A DNA stretch of 64,000 bases from Chryseobacterium gleum. GTDB lineage: Bacteria; Bacteroidota; Bacteroidia; Flavobacteriales; Weeksellaceae. A program made the position numbers and the translations under genes. Below the pieces are notes generated by a model. It was not told the DNA's origin and ran no database searches. It was given only the letters and a program-made list of their open reading frames with translations. Position 1 is the stretch's first letter. The number at the start of each line of letters is the position of its first letter. The stretch spans positions 4,737,501 to 4,801,500 of the forward strand of contig NZ_LR134289.1 of the NCBI RefSeq assembly GCF_900636535.1, given 5' to 3'. Shown one piece after another: positions 3,112-21,652 of this stretch.

Positions 3112-3285
3112 ATGTGAACATTAAAAATTAAAATCAATATTCAACCATTAAGGAAGCTGAAAAGTGTAAGGAAGCTAGTCTGACACTTACGAAACGTTCA
3201 CTTACTATTATCCATATCTATCCTTATGATCCGGCAGACCTTGATGGTTACTATTGATTTAAATGATATAAACTCTTTCAAAAAA

Positions 3286-5325
3286 ATGAAAAATCAGTCA
3301 CAAACATTATTTCAAAGAGATTTGGTTAACGAAGCGATAAAACAGTCCTTCGTAAAGCTGAATCCGAAAATTATGTTTAAAAATCCGGTAATGTTTCTGG
3401 TGGAAATCGGAACCATTGTTATGTTTATCGTAAGCATGTTCAGTCTTACCGGTGATAAAACCCAGGGAAGCTTTTCCTATAACTTTTTAGTATTTATTAT
3501 TTTATTTTTCACCGTTCTGTTTGCCAACTTTGCAGAAGCTATTGCAGAGGCAAGAGGAAAAGCACAGGCTGATACCCTCAGAAAAACAAGGGAAGAAACT
3601 CCGGCCAGAGTAGTCCTTGATAACAAACCGGGGTTCCAGGTAGAAACAAGTCTGAAAATGTCTGCTGAAATGAAATTAGGTGATATTTTCCTTTGTGAGG
3701 CTGGAGATCAGATTCCGATGGATGGAGAGATTATTGAAGGTCTGGCAACTATTGATGAATCTGCAATTACCGGAGAAAGTGCCCCTGTAATCCGCGAAGC
3801 CGGAGGAGATAAAAGTTCTGTAACAGGAGGTACAAAAGTATTGTCAGACAGAATTAAAGTGAAAGTAACCACAAAACCGGGAGAATCCTTCTTAGATAAA
3901 ATGATTGCTCTTGTAGAAGGAGCATCAAGACAAAAGACACCAAACGAAATTGCATTAACCATATTATTAGCAGGATTCACGCTTACATTTATAATTGTTA
4001 CCCTCACTTTAAAGCCTTTTGCAGACTATGCGCAGACTCCGATTACCATAGCGGCATTTATATCTCTTTTCGTTTGTCTTATTCCGACAACCATCGGTGG
4101 TCTGCTTTCTGCAATCGGGATTGCGGGAATGGACAGAGCGCTGAGAGCGAATGTGATTACCAAAAGTGGTAAAGCAGTGGAAACTGCGGGAGATATTGAC
4201 GTCCTGCTGCTTGATAAAACCGGAACAATCACCATCGGTAACCGTAAGGCTACCCAATTTCATCCTGCTAATGGAATTCAGCTTGAAGAATTCATTAAAG
4301 CTTCTGCATTAAGTTCTGTAGCGGATGAAACGCCGGAAGGAAAATCCATCATTGAACTGAGTGCCTTAAAAACCGAAGATTTATTGGTTTCCAATCCTAC
4401 CTATATCGATTTTACTGCGGAAACAAGAACTTCAGGAATTGATTTTGATGAAACAAGAATCCGTAAAGGAGCTTACGATACGATAAAAAAACTGACTGAA
4501 AAAGCCGGGAATATCTTCCCGCAGGAAACCCAGGATGCAGTAACCAAAATTTCTGAAAACGGAGGAACTCCCTTAGTAGTTGCCGTTAATGAAAAAGTAT
4601 GGGGTGTTATTGAACTTCAGGATATCATCAAAACCGGAATTCAGGAACGTTTCCAGAGATTGAGAAAAATGGGCGTAAAAACGGTAATGGTAACCGGAGA
4701 TAATCCTCTGACTGCAAAATTCATTGCAGAAAAAGCTGGAGTAGACGATTTTATCGCAGAAGCCAAACCTGAAGATAAAATGAATTACATCAAAAAAGAA
4801 CAGCAGGAAGGTAAGCTGGTTGCCATGATGGGAGACGGAACCAATGACGCTCCGGCATTAGCTCAGGCAGATGTAGGTGTAGCTATGAACAGTGGAACTC
4901 AAGCCGCAAAAGAAGCCGGAAACATGGTAGACCTTGATAATGACCCCACAAAACTGATTGAAATTGTGGAAATCGGGAAGCAGCTGTTGATGACAAGAGG
5001 AACGCTGACGACTTTCAGTATTGCGAATGACGTAGCGAAGTATTTTGCGATTATTCCTGCACTCTTTATCACGTTTATTCCTTCTCTGCAGAAATTGAAT
5101 ATTATGAATCTTCACAGCCCGGAAACGGCCATATTATCAGCGGTTATTTTCAATGCGGTGATTATTCCATTCCTGATTCCGCTGGCACTGAAAGGAGTAG
5201 CTTATAAGCCAATCGGAGCCAGTGCATTGTTAAGAAGAAACCTTTTGATCTATGGTTTGGGCGGAGTTATTGTTCCATTCATCGGAATCAAAATCATTGA
5301 TCTGATAATCAGTTTATTCTATTAA
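3286..5325 (+). CDS. kdpB: K+-transporting ATPase ATP-binding subunit KdpB
   Basis: P-type ATPase subunit that hydrolyses ATP to drive K+ through KdpA. The phosphorylated aspartate lies in DKTGTIT (Asp about 310), the actuator motif TGES is upstream, and the hinge motif [10 protein letters not shown] is near residue 515. I place the start at ATG 3286 (679 aa) because the protein then begins like other KdpB subunits. The 20 residues readable upstream from 3226 look like intergenic sequence. A 174-bp gap after kdpA contains a direct repeat of TAAGGAAGCT (near 3149 and 3169) of unknown meaning. Confidence 0.97.
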
Positions 5326-17049: not shown

Positions 17050-17139
17050 TTTAAAGTAATTTAACATAATGTTCTGATTTAATTAAAAAAATGTTAAAAC
17101 TTTCTTAAACACCCCGCTCTTAAAGTCAAAATACCTTTG
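17050..17139 (+). promoter_or_regulatory. Promoter with six 11-bp-phased TTAAnA repeats (Pho-box-like)
   Basis: Units begin at exactly 11-bp steps: 17050 TTTAAAG, 17061 TTAACAT, 17072 TTCTGAT (weak), 17083 TTAAAAA, 17094 TTAAAAC and 17105 TTAAACA. A perfect Bacteroidota -7 box TACCTTTG lies at 17132-17139, 27 bp after the start of the last unit. Tandem 11-bp direct repeats are how PhoB/PhoP-family regulators bind. The 131-bp stretch between ligA and this site would hold the ligA promoter; I see no clear box there. Confidence 0.65.
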
Positions 17140-17241
17140 CACATCTGATTGAAAGAAACCTCATAATGATCTATCATCGTGAAAATCAAAGAGGTTTCCG
17201 GGCGAATATCAAAAAATTAATAATATAGATCTTCGGAAGAA

Positions 17242-20200
17242 ATGAAAAAAGTAAAGATTGTACTGGGATTATTGTTTTTAGGGCTTGGGACAATGGCTTA
17301 TGCACAGACCACACAGGCTTCTATTGTAGGGAAAGTTACCGGACCGGGAAGTACGGCTCAGGAAAAAGTGAAAGTAACGATCGTGAATGAGTCTACAGGA
17401 TTCAGAACGGAAACGGAAACGAACTCAAAAGGGGAGTATATATTTAAAGAAATTCCTCTTGGAGGGCCTTACACCGTCATTGTCAACGATGATAAAAAAG
17501 AAGGGTACAATGTGAATTTTGGTGATCAGGTTACTGTCAATATGGATCTTGGAAATGAGAAGCATATTGAAGAAGTAAAGATTACAGGGAACCTTAAAAA
17601 CAAAATCGGAAACCTGGGAGCGGCCACCGCTATTTCTGCTAAAAATATCAGCATACTCCCGGTAAACGGTCGAAACTTTGCCAATCTTGCTGAACTATCT
17701 CCACTGAGCGGGAAAGGTGGAAACCTTTCCGGGCAACTGGGGTCTTCCACCAACTTTACAATTGATGGGATGACAGCCAAAAATCCTACTTCTGCCGGAG
17801 CTACTACCAGCCGAAGCGGTGCCCCTTTCTCAATCTCTATTGAAGCGGTACGTGAATTTAAAATCACAACCAACCAATATGATGTTACTTTGGGAAGAAG
17901 CGGAGGTGGAACAGTAAGTGCTGTTACCAAATCAGGGACCAATAAATTTTCAGGAAGTGCCTGGGAATATTTAAGAACCAACTGGCTTTCCAGCCCATAT
18001 GATATCAGAGGAAACAAAAGAGATAATGATTTCTCTACTTCCCAGTTCGGATTTTCATTGGGAGGTCCAATCATTAAAAACAAATTGCATTTCTTCGTAG
18101 CATGGGACCATCAGTTGGATTCAAGACCATTGGTCATTGCTGATATCAAGTCTCCGGATGACGAAAAAAGATTCAATACAACAACACAGACACTTAACCA
18201 GTTTCTGGATATTGCCAGAGCAAAATATGGGGTAGGAAACACCCCGCAATTCGGAACATTTGATAAAGTGAGAAACTCCGATGCTGCATTCTTACGTCTT
18301 GACTGGCAGATCAACGAAAAGAACTTATTGACGCTTAGAAATAACTTTACCTACGACCTTAATAAAAACGGATTGGGTGATAATACCAATATCAACTTCT
18401 TTGAATCTTACGGAAATGACAAAAACCTTGATAACAGCTTGTTGTTAACATTAAGATCAAACCTTCAGCCTAATCTGACCAATGAATTGAAGGCACAATA
18501 TCTTTACACTTTCCAGGATAGTTACCAGAACAGCCAATTAGGAAAACCGGTTCCGAGAGCGATTGTGGAAGGAGTATCATCAAGCGTGGGGTCAACTAAT
18601 ATTCAGATCGGAGGACACCGTTTTGCTCAGGAAAGCTTCAGAAATAATGTATTTCAGGTGGTAGATAACTTGTATTACAATACAGATAAAGTAAAATATA
18701 CTTTCGGTGCCGACCTTATGTATACAATGGCAAAATCTGTATACGGAAGTGAGGTGAACGGAAGATTCCATTTTCAGGGGCTTACCAATTTTGATAATCT
18801 TACTCCATACAGATTCTACAGAGAAGTTCCTTTGATGGCAGATCCGTCCGTAAGATCGAACATTTGGAACATTGGTATCTATGGGCAGTTTCAGACTAAA
18901 GTGGCAAAAGGACTTGATTTGATGGCCGGTTTAAGATTAGACTACGGTGGTTATCCGAAAGCAGAATTCAACCAGAAACTGTTTGATGAAATGGGAATCA
19001 GAACAGATAATCAGATCAAATCATTTGTCATTCAGCCAAGATTCCAGTTTGACTGGAATATCAATGAAGGGAATAAAGACTTCCTGAAGTTTGGAGCCGG
19101 AATTTTCTCTTCCGATATCAACAATTATATGATCATCAACAACCTGGTATTTGATGGTAGACACCTTGCTACAGTGGATGTAAATCCTACGGCGATTGGT
19201 CTTACTCCTGATTTTAACAGTTACAGGAATGACTATAATTCTGTTCCGTCTCTCTCCCAGTATCAGATTCCAACAATTAACTATACTGGTAAAGATGCGA
19301 AAATCCCGATCGTTTATAAAGCCAATATCTCGTATACCCATTTCTTCAATGAAAGATTCAGAGCTGGAATTGCCGGATACATGGCTTTAGGTAGAAATAA
19401 TTACTTTTACTACGACAGAAACATGGTGGCAAATCCTTTCTTTACCCTGGCTAATGAAGGCGGAAGAGGAGTATTTATCCCTACAGGTGCTATTACCAAT
19501 AATGCCAATAACAGTGTAAGTTTCGACTGGAAACAGGGAAGAATCAATAATAATTTCGGAAGAGTACTGGAATTGGTGAGCGATGGTAAAGTAAACCAGT
19601 TCTCATTCGTAATCGATACAAGCTACCGTTACTGGAAAGATGGGGAAATCACCGCAAGTTACACTTGGTCTGATATTAAAGACAATACTTCATACAACGG
19701 AAACGTAGCCAACTCAGCAACATTATCTACCATGATCCAGAGTGATCCGAGAGATCTGAGAATGACTTATTCAGACAACCAGTTCAGAAACAAAGTAGTG
19801 ATCTACGGTAACTCTCCAACCATTGCAGGATTTACATTGGGGATCAGGTATTCAGGAATCGGAGGAACGCGTTTCTCAGCAACCACAGGAGGAAACATCA
19901 ACGGCGACTTTGTAGATTCCAACGATCTTGCTTTTATCTTCCCTAACCTTACCAAATCCATTCTGGATGATCCGCAGGTAGGACAGGCCCTGAAAGATTA
20001 TATCAATGAATATAACGGAAGAATCGCAGAGCGTAACGGAGGTAAAAACGGTTTCTACGGTGTTTGGGACGTACGTGTTGCCAAGAAAATTAAATTCGAT
20101 AAAGTCGGAGCTTTTGAACTTTCTGTAGATATCTTCAACGTAGCCAACCTTCTTAACAAAGAATGGGGGGTAAACAAATCATACTCAAATACTTCTTTGT

Positions 20201-20328
20201 ATAAGGTAACCAAGTTCAATAAAGATACGATGCAGTACGAATACACCAAAAACGTAAGTGGAGGTGGTTTGGTTCCTCTGACAGGAAATCCTTACCAGAT
20301 CCAGATCGGTGCAAAATATACTTTCTAA
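17242..20328 (+). CDS. Oar-like TonB-dependent outer-membrane receptor
   Basis: 1028 residues: signal peptide (cleavage after AYAQ, residue 22), a carboxypeptidase-regulatory-like beta-sandwich (about 25-105), a plug domain (about 120-230, with NFTIDGMTAKNP and GGGTVSAVTKSGTN), then a large 22-strand type barrel ending in YQIQIGAKYTF. This is the Oar-like class of TonB receptors, used for uptake of large substrates. Expression is probably from the phased-repeat promoter at 17050-17139. A phosphodiesterase gene follows, suggesting a phosphorus-containing substrate. Confidence 0.9.
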   Translation: MKKVKIVLGLLFLGLGTMAYAQTTQASIVGKVTGPGSTAQEKVKVTIVNESTGFRTETETNSKGEYIFKEIPLGGPYTVIVNDDKKEGYNVNFGDQVTVNMDLGNEKHIEEVKITGNLKNKIGNLGAATAISAKNISILPVNGRNFANLAELSPLSGKGGNLSGQLGSSTNFTIDGMTAKNPTSAGATTSRSGAPFSISIEAVREFKITTNQYDVTLGRSGGGTVSAVTKSGTNKFSGSAWEYLRTNWLSSPYDIRGNKRDNDFSTSQFGFSLGGPIIKNKLHFFVAWDHQLDSRPLVIADIKSPDDEKRFNTTTQTLNQFLDIARAKYGVGNTPQFGTFDKVRNSDAAFLRLDWQINEKNLLTLRNNFTYDLNKNGLGDNTNINFFESYGNDKNLDNSLLLTLRSNLQPNLTNELKAQYLYTFQDSYQNSQLGKPVPRAIVEGVSSSVGSTNIQIGGHRFAQESFRNNVFQVVDNLYYNTDKVKYTFGADLMYTMAKSVYGSEVNGRFHFQGLTNFDNLTPYRFYREVPLMADPSVRSNIWNIGIYGQFQTKVAKGLDLMAGLRLDYGGYPKAEFNQKLFDEMGIRTDNQIKSFVIQPRFQFDWNINEGNKDFLKFGAGIFSSDINNYMIINNLVFDGRHLATVDVNPTAIGLTPDFNSYRNDYNSVPSLSQYQIPTINYTGKDAKIPIVYKANISYTHFFNERFRAGIAGYMALGRNNYFYYDRNMVANPFFTLANEGGRGVFIPTGAITNNANNSVSFDWKQGRINNNFGRVLELVSDGKVNQFSFVIDTSYRYWKDGEITASYTWSDIKDNTSYNGNVANSATLSTMIQSDPRDLRMTYSDNQFRNKVVIYGNSPTIAGFTLGIRYSGIGGTRFSATTGGNINGDFVDSNDLAFIFPNLTKSILDDPQVGQALKDYINEYNGRIAERNGGKNGFYGVWDVRVAKKIKFDKVGAFELSVDIFNVANLLNKEWGVNKSYSNTSLYKVTKFNKDTMQYEYTKNVSGGGLVPLTGNPYQIQIGAKYTF

Positions 20329-20336
20329 CTTCTTTT

Positions 20337-20375
20337 GAGCCACGGAAGACATACAGTCTCCGTGGTTCAATTTTT
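20337..20375 (+). terminator. Terminator-like hairpin between TonB receptor and GDPD genes
   Basis: CCACGGA (20340-20346) pairs with TCCGTGG (20359-20365), followed by a T-rich tract. It may terminate or attenuate transcription, so the GDPD gene may be only partly co-transcribed with the receptor. Confidence 0.65.
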
Positions 20376-20432
20376 AATAACTACCTTTATCAGAAGTTTC
20401 AGGACTTTGTTTTTAATAATCTAAATTATATT

Positions 20433-21179
20433 ATGAAAAATTTTATCTTAGGGTTAGCAGTTTTAAGTACAGTTATGATGAAAGCACAAACCCAGATTAT
20501 CGCCCACAGAGGATATTTCCAGGCTCAGCCTCCTACCACGGAAAATTCACTTCAATCGCTGGAAAATGCCCAGAAATTAAAAGTATATGGGTCTGAATTT
20601 GATGTAAGAATGACAAAAGATGGTGTATTGGTGATCAATCATGATGAGCACCATGGTAAAATGGAAATTTCCGAAACCAGTTTCAAAGATCTCGAAGCAT
20701 TGAAATTATCCAACGGAGAAAACTTTCCTACTTTAAAAGATTATCTGAAGCAGGGAAAAAAAGATAAATCTCTGAAACTAATTGTCGAGATTAAGCCTGC
20801 CAAAACTCCGGAAATAGAAAATGAAATTACGGAGAAAACGATTAAAATGATTAAAGATATGAAGCTGGAATCTCAAAGTGAGTTTATTTCCTTCAGCCTG
20901 AATATCTGTAAGGAAATCAAAAAACTGGCTCCATCCTTTAAAGTTCAGTATCTGAACGGCGAGCTGTCTCCTGAACAGATCAAAAAAGAGGGATTGGATG
21001 GTATGGACTACCACTACAGTGTTTTCCAGAAAAACCCAACATGGATTGCTGAAGCAAAAGCATTAGGATTAATTACCAATGCCTGGACTGTAAATGATGT
21101 TGCCGTATATGATGAATTGAAGAAGCAGGGAATCGGGTTTGTAACAACCAATATCCCTGATCAGTTGAAAAACAAATAA
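20433..21179 (+). CDS. Glycerophosphodiester phosphodiesterase (exported)
   Basis: 248 residues with a signal peptide (cleavage near MKAQ, residue 19). The GDPD fold shows HRG (IIAHRGYF), the acidic pair in SEFDVRMTKDG, the second histidine in INHDEHHG, and a metal-binding glutamate in IVEIKPAK. It hydrolyses glycerophosphodiesters from lipid head groups to glycerol-3-phosphate and an alcohol, in the periplasm. Flanked by TonB-receptor and SusCD genes, it fits an organic-phosphate scavenging locus. Confidence 0.93.
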   Translation: MKNFILGLAVLSTVMMKAQTQIIAHRGYFQAQPPTTENSLQSLENAQKLKVYGSEFDVRMTKDGVLVINHDEHHGKMEISETSFKDLEALKLSNGENFPTLKDYLKQGKKDKSLKLIVEIKPAKTPEIENEITEKTIKMIKDMKLESQSEFISFSLNICKEIKKLAPSFKVQYLNGELSPEQIKKEGLDGMDYHYSVFQKNPTWIAEAKALGLITNAWTVNDVAVYDELKKQGIGFVTTNIPDQLKNK

Positions 21180-21225
21180 ACAATTCAGAACCTTTCAGAA
21201 ATATTACAACTGAAAGACAAAATAT

Positions 21226-21295
21226 TCCCTTCTTCCGGAGGGGTGGCGAAAATTCAAAGAATTTTTGATGGGTGGTCAAACGAAATTTTTTAACC
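21226..21295. repeat. Probable dispersed intergenic repeat
   Basis: A GC-richer stretch starting TCTTCCGGAGGGGTGGCG, with a small palindrome AAAATTC/GAATTTT (21249-21265) and a later GGTGG/CCATC pairing. It is non-coding and unlike its AT-rich surroundings. I recall similar strings in intergenic spacers of chryseobacteria, but I cannot verify copy number here. Confidence 0.4.
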
Positions 21296-21322
21296 ATCTC
21301 AACAAATAACCAATAATTTATA

Positions 21323-21359
21323 CAGTCTGCTTCTTATATGGAAGCAGGCTGCTTTTTTT
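21323..21359 (+). terminator. Rho-independent terminator after GDPD gene
   Basis: An 11-bp stem (CAGTCTGCTTC with GAAGCAGGCTG, one G-T pair) followed by a seven-T run. It closes the receptor/GDPD unit. Confidence 0.85.
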
Positions 21360-21563
21360 AGAAGCTAGCCCTTCTTTTTAAAAGTAAATGAAAGAATCAA
21401 GTGTTTAGAATTTGTTTTAATTTGCTGTAATTCAGTATGTTGCTTGCTTTGTGTGGTATTATCTCAAAGACAGACAATAAAGATAAATAAATACAACCTG
21501 GAAACCGTATTAAAAATACTTAATTGCTTAATTGTTTGTTAATTAGTTATTTATCCAATGTTA

Positions 21564-21652
21564 TTAAGACTGGATTAACAAATGGTTTAATAAATTTTTA
21601 AGAAACGTTAAAAGTGTGTTAAGATGTTCCTTGTAATGTCGTTCTAATTTTG
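21564..21652 (+). promoter_or_regulatory. Promoter with six 11-bp-phased TTAAnA repeats before susC
   Basis: Units start at 21564 TTAAGAC, 21575 TTAACAA, 21586 TTTAATA, 21597 TTTAAGA, 21608 TTAAAAG and 21619 TTAAGAT, each exactly 11 bp apart. A perfect -7 box TAATTTTG is at 21645-21652, 26 bp after the last unit starts, nearly the same geometry as the promoter at 17050-17139. This is the best internal evidence that the two units share one regulator, plausibly of the PhoB family. Confidence 0.72.

Follow-up and report, generated by a model that had tools for sequence, protein, structure and literature searches.

Six-unit arrays of 11-bp direct repeats before two predicted outer-membrane transport units of Chryseobacterium gleum are likely Pho boxes

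Within a window of 64,000 nucleotides from the Chryseobacterium gleum genome (contig NZ_LR134289.1, positions 4,737,501 to 4,801,500 of the forward strand), two promoters each carry an array of six direct repeat units at an 11-bp pitch, held at a fixed distance from a TAnnTTTG box. Array 1 lies upstream of an outer-membrane protein (OMP) gene and a glycerophosphodiester phosphodiesterase (GDPD) gene, and array 2 upstream of genes for SusC, SusD and a calcineurin-like phosphoesterase (Table 1). Direct observation covers the arrays, their conservation and their fixed distance from the box, and also the recurrence of this layout at phoD, at the phoBR-divergent receptor gene, at GDPD genes not preceded by the OMP gene, and at one distant pstS. 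We regard it as very likely that the arrays are Pho boxes, and we predict that up to three dimers of the PhoB-type regulator L008 bind each array in head-to-tail order and activate the OMP-GDPD and SusC-SusD-phosphoesterase units at low phosphate. A reading of the sequence alone had proposed a Pho-box-like architecture; it is supported by conserved phasing, by the occurrence of the arrays at promoters of phosphate genes, and by a PhoB-type regulator that has an adjacent kinase and is the only one of twelve with such a helix.

The units of array 1 are, in order, TTTAAAGTAAT TTAACATAATG TTCTGATTTAA TTAAAAAAATG TTAAAACTTTC TTAAACACCCC, with cores TTTAAA, TTAACA, TTCTGA, TTAAAA, TTAAAA and TTAAAC, and those of array 2 are TTAAGACTGGA TTAACAAATGG TTTAATAAATT TTTAAGAAACG TTAAAAGTGTG TTAAGATGTTC, with cores TTAAGA, TTAACA, TTTAAT, TTTAAG, TTAAAA and TTAAGA. 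Direct inspection bears out the 11-bp pitch and the coordinates given for both arrays in the sequence-only reading, as well as the distances of 27 and 26 bp from the start of the last unit to a perfect TAnnTTTG box (TACCTTTG and TAATTTTG, respectively); we take both boxes to be of the Bacteroidota -7 type. Its description of the units as TTAAnA stands as regards six phased units per array, but the strict consensus fits only 3/6 units of array 1 and 4/6 of array 2. TT(A/T)A accommodates 11 of the 12 window units, the exception being unit 3 of array 1 (TTCT), and we set the strict consensus aside as too narrow, TT(A/T/C)A being better by the unit matrix. Both arrays contain the two or more direct repeats at 11-bp pitch that mark a Pho box; the usual Pho box has two to four units.

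Table 1. Arrays, promoter boxes and genes of the two units in the window
Feature	Coordinates	Strand	Basis or remarks
Array 1, six 11-bp units	17050..17115	+	Predicted PhoB-type operator; sequence, shuffle statistics, 39/39 OMP promoters
Box TACCTTTG	17132..17139	+	27 bp after start of last array 1 unit; TAnnTTTG, perfect
Oar-like outer-membrane beta-barrel protein, 1028 aa	17242..20328	+	Pfam OMP_b-brl_4, CarboxypepD_reg
Glycerophosphodiester phosphodiesterase (GDPD), 248 aa	20433..21179	+	Pfam PF03009
Array 2, six 11-bp units	21564..21629	+	Predicted PhoB-type operator; sequence, shuffle statistics, 49/50 SusC promoters
Box TAATTTTG	21645..21652	+	26 bp after start of last array 2 unit; TAnnTTTG, perfect
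SusC/RagA-family TonB-linked outer-membrane protein, 987 aa	21669..24632	+	TIGR04056, above cut-off
SusD-like lipoprotein (SusD-like_2), 482 aa	24644..26092	+	PF12771
Calcineurin-like phosphoesterase, MetallophosN/MetallophosC domains, 528 aa	26133..27719	+	PF16370, PF16371, PF00149

Six TTAA cores at 11-bp spacing with no more than three mismatches occur at two sites in the window, which are the two arrays (three mismatches in array 1, two in array 2), and at none in 100 dinucleotide shuffles; the whole 5.6-Mb genome has three such places, and a reversed-pattern control has none. We also used a locked scan, in which five units must be followed at 26 or 27 bp by a TAnnTTTG-like box. The two window sites score 27.7 and 26.2, the next-best site in the window (9.3) is the opposite strand of array 2, and simulated maxima are 5.9 in 20 Markov windows and 11.9 in 20 64-kb sequences of AT-rich promoter composition. 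Across 98 genomes of the genus the strict six-unit pattern (at most two mismatches) is present in 72, and the six-unit pattern gives about 86 matches versus 9 for the control, these being sums over a table in which some matches overlap. A strict search for four TTAANA units in the C. gleum genome gave no match.

Conservation was examined in 51 related loci fetched in addition to the window, in which gene order was mapped; in the alignment of SusC and OMP promoters the box and its offset were picked jointly with the array. The array is kept in 49/50 aligned SusC promoters, with 20–23 of 24 core matches and the box at 26 bp, and in 39/39 OMP promoters, with 20–21 of 24 core matches and the box at 27 bp in 38 and at 26 bp in one, so that the phase to the core promoter is fixed in both sets. 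The SusC set omits L056, where the match begins inside the gene, and L066, a Niastella locus in which no box was found; L064, a Dysgonomonas locus, was retained and is the sole miss, with a box present but no array found. Agreement among SusC promoters is 0.99 at core columns 1, 2 and 4 versus 0.68 in the spacers (n = 49), with similar values in 31 distant SusC promoters (0.98 versus 0.68) and in the OMP promoters (0.97 versus 0.81, n = 39). Because the spacers diverge while the cores stay fixed, we rejected an origin of the arrays as a tandem repeat or mobile element. The sequence-only reading held that loss of the phasing in orthologous promoters would speak against it, and this was not what we saw.

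Rearranged loci give further information. Thirteen loci lack the OMP gene; three of these (L049–L051) have GDPD behind SusD and two (L064 and L066) have no GDPD, which leaves eight, and in 8/8 of these the GDPD gene has its own locked array (p = 0/500 each). L049, which is on the list of GDPD promoters, scores nothing, its GDPD sitting behind SusD. Since GDPD on its own keeps a locked array, the array stays with the genes when loci are rearranged.

A five-unit search of the C. gleum genome (at most two mismatches) gave 12 forward matches at 11 places, and the control gave one. At six of the 11 places the array is locked to a box and followed by a gene: both window units, a paralogous OMP gene (L067; 24% identity with the OMP of the window, and the weakest lock, at 9.2), a TonB receptor gene divergent from the PhoB-type regulator and kinase genes (L082/L070), a PhoD-type phosphatase gene (L088; PF09423), and a TolC-type efflux gene (L085). 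Arrays L080, L081, L084, L086 and L087 were set aside as showing no lock to a box, and an array driving phoB itself was likewise rejected, as the C. gleum genome showed no locked box facing phoB (L093). The efflux gene is not a phosphate gene; its array, at G000:C1:2899610-2899657 (L085, L073), adjoins genes for a CusR-like regulator and kinase, and is possibly the operator of that regulator. Arrays resembling the L085 sequence are seen, in the arrays alone, in G088, G109, G111 and G149.

Only SusC and OMP promoters served to train the unit matrix, with no phoD, GDPD, pstS or receptor promoters among them. A search of 24 genus genomes found 12 PhoD genes in 12 genomes, which makes phoD a patchy member of the regulon, and 11/12 PhoD promoters have an array locked at 26 bp; the miss, L182, is a shorter PhoD. 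Among 23 SusC genes above cut-off in the C. gleum genome, the window gene alone scores strongly (22.1). The next, L187 (G000:C1:3387952-3390864), has a locked array of low score (9.1, p = 0/300) and is a possible weaker regulon member.

The C. gleum genome encodes 12 OmpR-family regulators. One of these, L008, is located away from the window at G000:C1:2182158-2182829, adjoins a histidine kinase gene (HisKA/HATPase_c), and is the only one of the 12 with the recognition helix RTIDVHIR, which we take to be of the E. coli PhoB type; the 18 orthologues compared have RTIDVHIR in 17 instances and RTIDVHVR in one. Orthologues of the regulator are present in 54/79 genomes of the order, and relatives of the C. 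gleum TonB receptor and lipoprotein are encoded near PhoBR in 16/19 regions, usually divergently. Linkage to phosphate transport is found in 3/24 genomes (G011, G056 and G008), where pstS lies near the regulator orthologue. In G011, pstS and the regulator gene are immediate divergent neighbours; a PhoU gene lies beyond pstS, and the three genes between pstS and the PhoU gene look like pstC, pstA and pstB. The genes from pstS through PhoU (L226:9533-13930) fill the phoBR-divergent slot that is occupied in other genera (L213–L217) by the TonB receptor and lipoprotein. A Na/Pi cotransporter with PhoU domains is encoded about 7 kb from PhoBR (L224:15781-17736).

We also aligned 18 PhoB-divergent promoters, one of them that of a pstS gene, on boxes picked blind, having dropped L219 from 19 regions as not divergent; the unit used for the profile, nTAACA, was chosen after some of these promoters had been viewed. 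Mean matches to nTAACA (of 5) are 2.83, 3.67 and 3.28 at 15, 26 and 37 bp before the box, and 2.72 and 2.41 farther up at 48 and 59 bp. The in-phase mean of 3.03 compares with 1.75 (sd 0.16) for random shifts, 0/20,000 of which reach it. The count is again 0/20,000 when each genus contributes a single genome (n = 13) and when promoters of the home family are excluded (n = 11). Among periods of 7 to 15 only 11 stands out, no other exceeding 2.27. At offset 26 at least four of five positions match in 11/18 promoters, and L213, L214, L216 and L217, from one family of the order, have about five or six nTAACA-type units per promoter. The G011 pstS promoter has TTTACA, TTAACA, TTAAAA and TTTACG at 11-bp spacing, the last unit being 26 bp before TATTTTTG. 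Of eight convincing pstS matches in distant genomes (E <1e-20), two have clear locked arrays and one a weak array. Arrays are thus present at recognised phosphate genes, at phoD in 11/12, divergent from phoBR in 11/18, at GDPD in 8/8, and clearly at pstS in 2/8. The enrichment before phosphate genes for which the sequence-only reading called holds for GDPD, for the SusCD-phosphoesterase unit, for PhoD and for the PhoB-divergent TonB receptor, and is incomplete for pstS.

For comparison we considered Riemerella anatipestifer, which presumably belongs to the same bacterial family as C. gleum. The motif obtained for its PhoP regulator by DAP-seq has TTTAACA as its most conserved letters and was likened to that of ArcA; sites bound by PhoP precede its own operon, a TonB receptor gene and an outer-membrane barrel gene, and the system is stated to rise in phosphate starvation (PMC9603813). 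The two-component pair is 70% identical to that of Flavobacteriaceae including Chryseobacterium, by the authors' figure (PMC5399024), and from this published identity Riemerella PhoP is probably the orthologue of L008. The units in the window and regulon agree with TTTAACA and the outer-membrane targets are alike, but the Riemerella work reports 583 in vitro peaks and, among the direct targets tabulated in the available part of the paper, has no multi-unit array, box phase or phosphate gene. Besides this motif, we found no described Pho box for Flavobacteriales in the open literature.

Pho boxes in general are 11-nt direct repeats for phosphate response regulators, with a consensus that differs between species (PMC4415409), and the Streptomyces pstS promoter has two 11-bp units (PMC2605767). 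As far as these sources go, the window arrays resemble the Pho box of PhoB of Escherichia coli and PhoP of Bacillus subtilis and Streptomyces in consisting of 11-nt direct repeats, and L008 in its PhoB-type helix. They differ from those boxes in their core (TTAAnA/nTAACA), in having six units and in the lock to TAnnTTTG, and the system differs in that no PhoU was found in the home family (13 genomes). ArcA sites of E. coli comprise between two and five direct repeats, for the most part spaced at 11 bp (PMC3798270), and in their extended form are similar both in the type of regulator, of the OmpR/PhoB family, and in the multi-repeat arrays; ArcA sites as described there vary in repeat number and spacing, whereas the arrays here mostly have five to six units and a fixed box distance.

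Within the phylum, the PhoBR locus of Flavobacterium johnsoniae has an adjacent TonB receptor and lipoprotein which, together with two SusCD pairs, are reported to be strongly induced by phosphate depletion (PMC8115612). The C. gleum system resembles these PusCD (phosphate utilisation system) loci, as far as they are described there, in that a SusCD-like pair is accompanied by phosphoesterase genes in the window and PhoBR lies beside a TonB receptor and lipoprotein; the window SusD, in contrast, is of the SusD-like_2 type (PF12771), and its associated enzymes are of the GDPD and MetallophosN/C types. The main text of the F. johnsoniae paper contains neither "promoter" nor "motif" nor "Pho box" (PMC8115612). 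PhoB of Bacteroides fragilis, of the same phylum as L008, shifts a 512-bp fragment of the pst promoter and is required for low-phosphate expression of pstC (PMC3547664); the word "consensus" does not occur in the main text of that paper, and no repeat architecture is described in the part of it available (PMC3547664).

Several observations weigh against assigning the arrays to phosphate control by PhoB. The locked array L085 is at an efflux gene beside another OmpR-family regulator, and the core is therefore not exclusive to phosphate genes. L008 scores 208 bits against PhoB TIGR02154, its best NCBIfam model in a comparison that covered 8/12 C. gleum regulators, and thus falls under the equivalog cut-off of 296.2, as does the PhoB orthologue beside pstS (219 bits); for this reason we call L008 PhoB-type by context and helix. 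In the pooled blind-box profile a maximum that is out of phase appears at 89 bp (2.82), which is unexplained and may be a conserved element on the phoB side, and the in-phase position at 70 bp (2.12) is no higher than background maxima. Seven of the 18 PhoB-divergent promoters have fewer than four of five matches at offset 26, and no locked array was found at 5/8 convincing distant pstS genes, one of which (L152) has an unlocked array and some of which may not be the first gene in the operon. In the Riemerella phoP mutant several PhoP-bound outer-membrane genes are reported to rise in the rich medium TSB, which suggests repression by PhoP (PMC9603813), and Riemerella pstS is given as 8-fold higher in a double mutant (PMC5399024).

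An alternative explanation is that a different OmpR-family regulator, for example one that is RprY-like or CusR-like, uses the arrays as its operators, the link to phosphate being coincidental or indirect. Members of this family are expected to bind 11-bp repeats, 12 are encoded in the C. gleum genome, and the locked TTAA array before the TolC-type efflux gene stands next to a CusR-like regulator. We consider this unlikely, given that the same layout recurs at phoBR-divergent promoters of several genera, at phoD and at a pstS divergent from a PhoB orthologue, and that among the C. gleum regulators the conserved RTIDVHIR helix is confined to L008.

The 11-bp period is also close to one helical turn, and the units are A+T rich and directly upstream of the box, as would be expected if they were phased A/T tracts, which would increase basal transcription by bending the DNA, with no dedicated regulator. 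Against this, the core TTAA/TTTA/TTCA has a TpA step in most units and no A tract, distant genomes show nTAACA with a conserved C, only one of the 23 C. gleum SusC genes has a strong locked array, and AT-rich simulations fall short of the observed scores; bending of this kind is very unlikely to be the explanation. Base composition alone speaks for a chance similarity in AT-rich promoters, which we take as already refuted by the empty shuffles and reversed control, the strict conservation and the excess over the control across the genus. We therefore retain the interpretation of the arrays as Pho boxes.

Judged by the gene families behind arrays 1 and 2 alone, both units would couple outer-membrane import with phosphodiester hydrolysis. 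The 1028-aa beta-barrel protein is presumably Oar-like, and the GDPD gene is probably part of its transcription unit. Phosphodiesters or the head groups of phospholipids are the predicted cargo that the SusCD pair and the receptor carry through the outer membrane, and the GDPD and phosphoesterase would free phosphate from this cargo. The window SusD is 92–97% identical in many Chryseobacterium records. Elsewhere in the window, at 3226-5325, is a gene for a KdpB potassium-transporting ATPase, which is unrelated to the arrays.

In the mechanism that we propose, phosphorylated PhoB (PhoB-P) would fill an array from the promoter-proximal units outward, as head-to-tail dimers. The last unit sits where the -33 element of Bacteroidota promoters would be expected, and so the downstream-most dimer would replace that element as the contact for the sigma factor, as PhoB does in E. 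coli; the upstream dimers may add cooperative, concentration-graded occupancy. In view of the Riemerella mutant effects, repression in rich medium and elevated pstS, activation at low phosphate is something we only infer, on the strength of the induction in F. johnsoniae and of where the last unit is placed.

PhoU was not found in any of the 13 home-family genomes examined (12 of the genus and one of another genus), although the C. gleum genome has a PhoBR-type system. Short PhoU proteins are present in G056, G001, G008 and G011; the other PhoU matches are long proteins, one of which was checked and proved to be a PhoU-domain Na/Pi cotransporter. Long PhoU-domain matches lie about 10 kb from the PhoB orthologue in G033, G059, G067 and G074. 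A search for pstS (PF12849), made within the genus in the C. gleum genome only and not extended to pstC, pstA or pstB, gave one match above cut-off and one weak match below it. The match above cut-off is a 198-aa lipoprotein-like protein adjoining tonB, exbD and exbB (L078:9912-13706), which hints that a phosphate-binding protein of the periplasm may be linked to TonB. A broader scheme is possible, although we hold it only tentatively and think it somewhat doubtful, in which Chryseobacterium and its family have a Pho regulon with neither PhoU nor a standard Pst system and PhoBR is wired to outer-membrane scavenging. The receptor and lipoprotein would then occupy the slot in which a distant relative keeps pstS to phoU, and the six-unit arrays, filled by three dimers, would act as graded cooperative switches locked to a sigma-factor box and replacing the -33 element. 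If a Pho regulon does operate without PhoU, PhoR must sense phosphate by a PhoU-independent route.

Pho repeats at 11 bp are already known; what is new here is the six-unit length, the lock to the Bacteroidota box, the different gene set and a regulon without detectable PhoU, which raises the question of how PhoR senses phosphate where PhoU is not found. The arrays offer a readable cis code for the phosphate response of Flavobacteriales, with 11-bp units 15, 26, 37, 48 and 59 bp before TAnnTTTG and extending farther up in the window arrays. This code allows the prediction of phosphate-scavenging SusCD/TonB systems, as in the single strong match among the SusC genes of C. gleum, in an order that is prominent in plant-associated phosphorus turnover.

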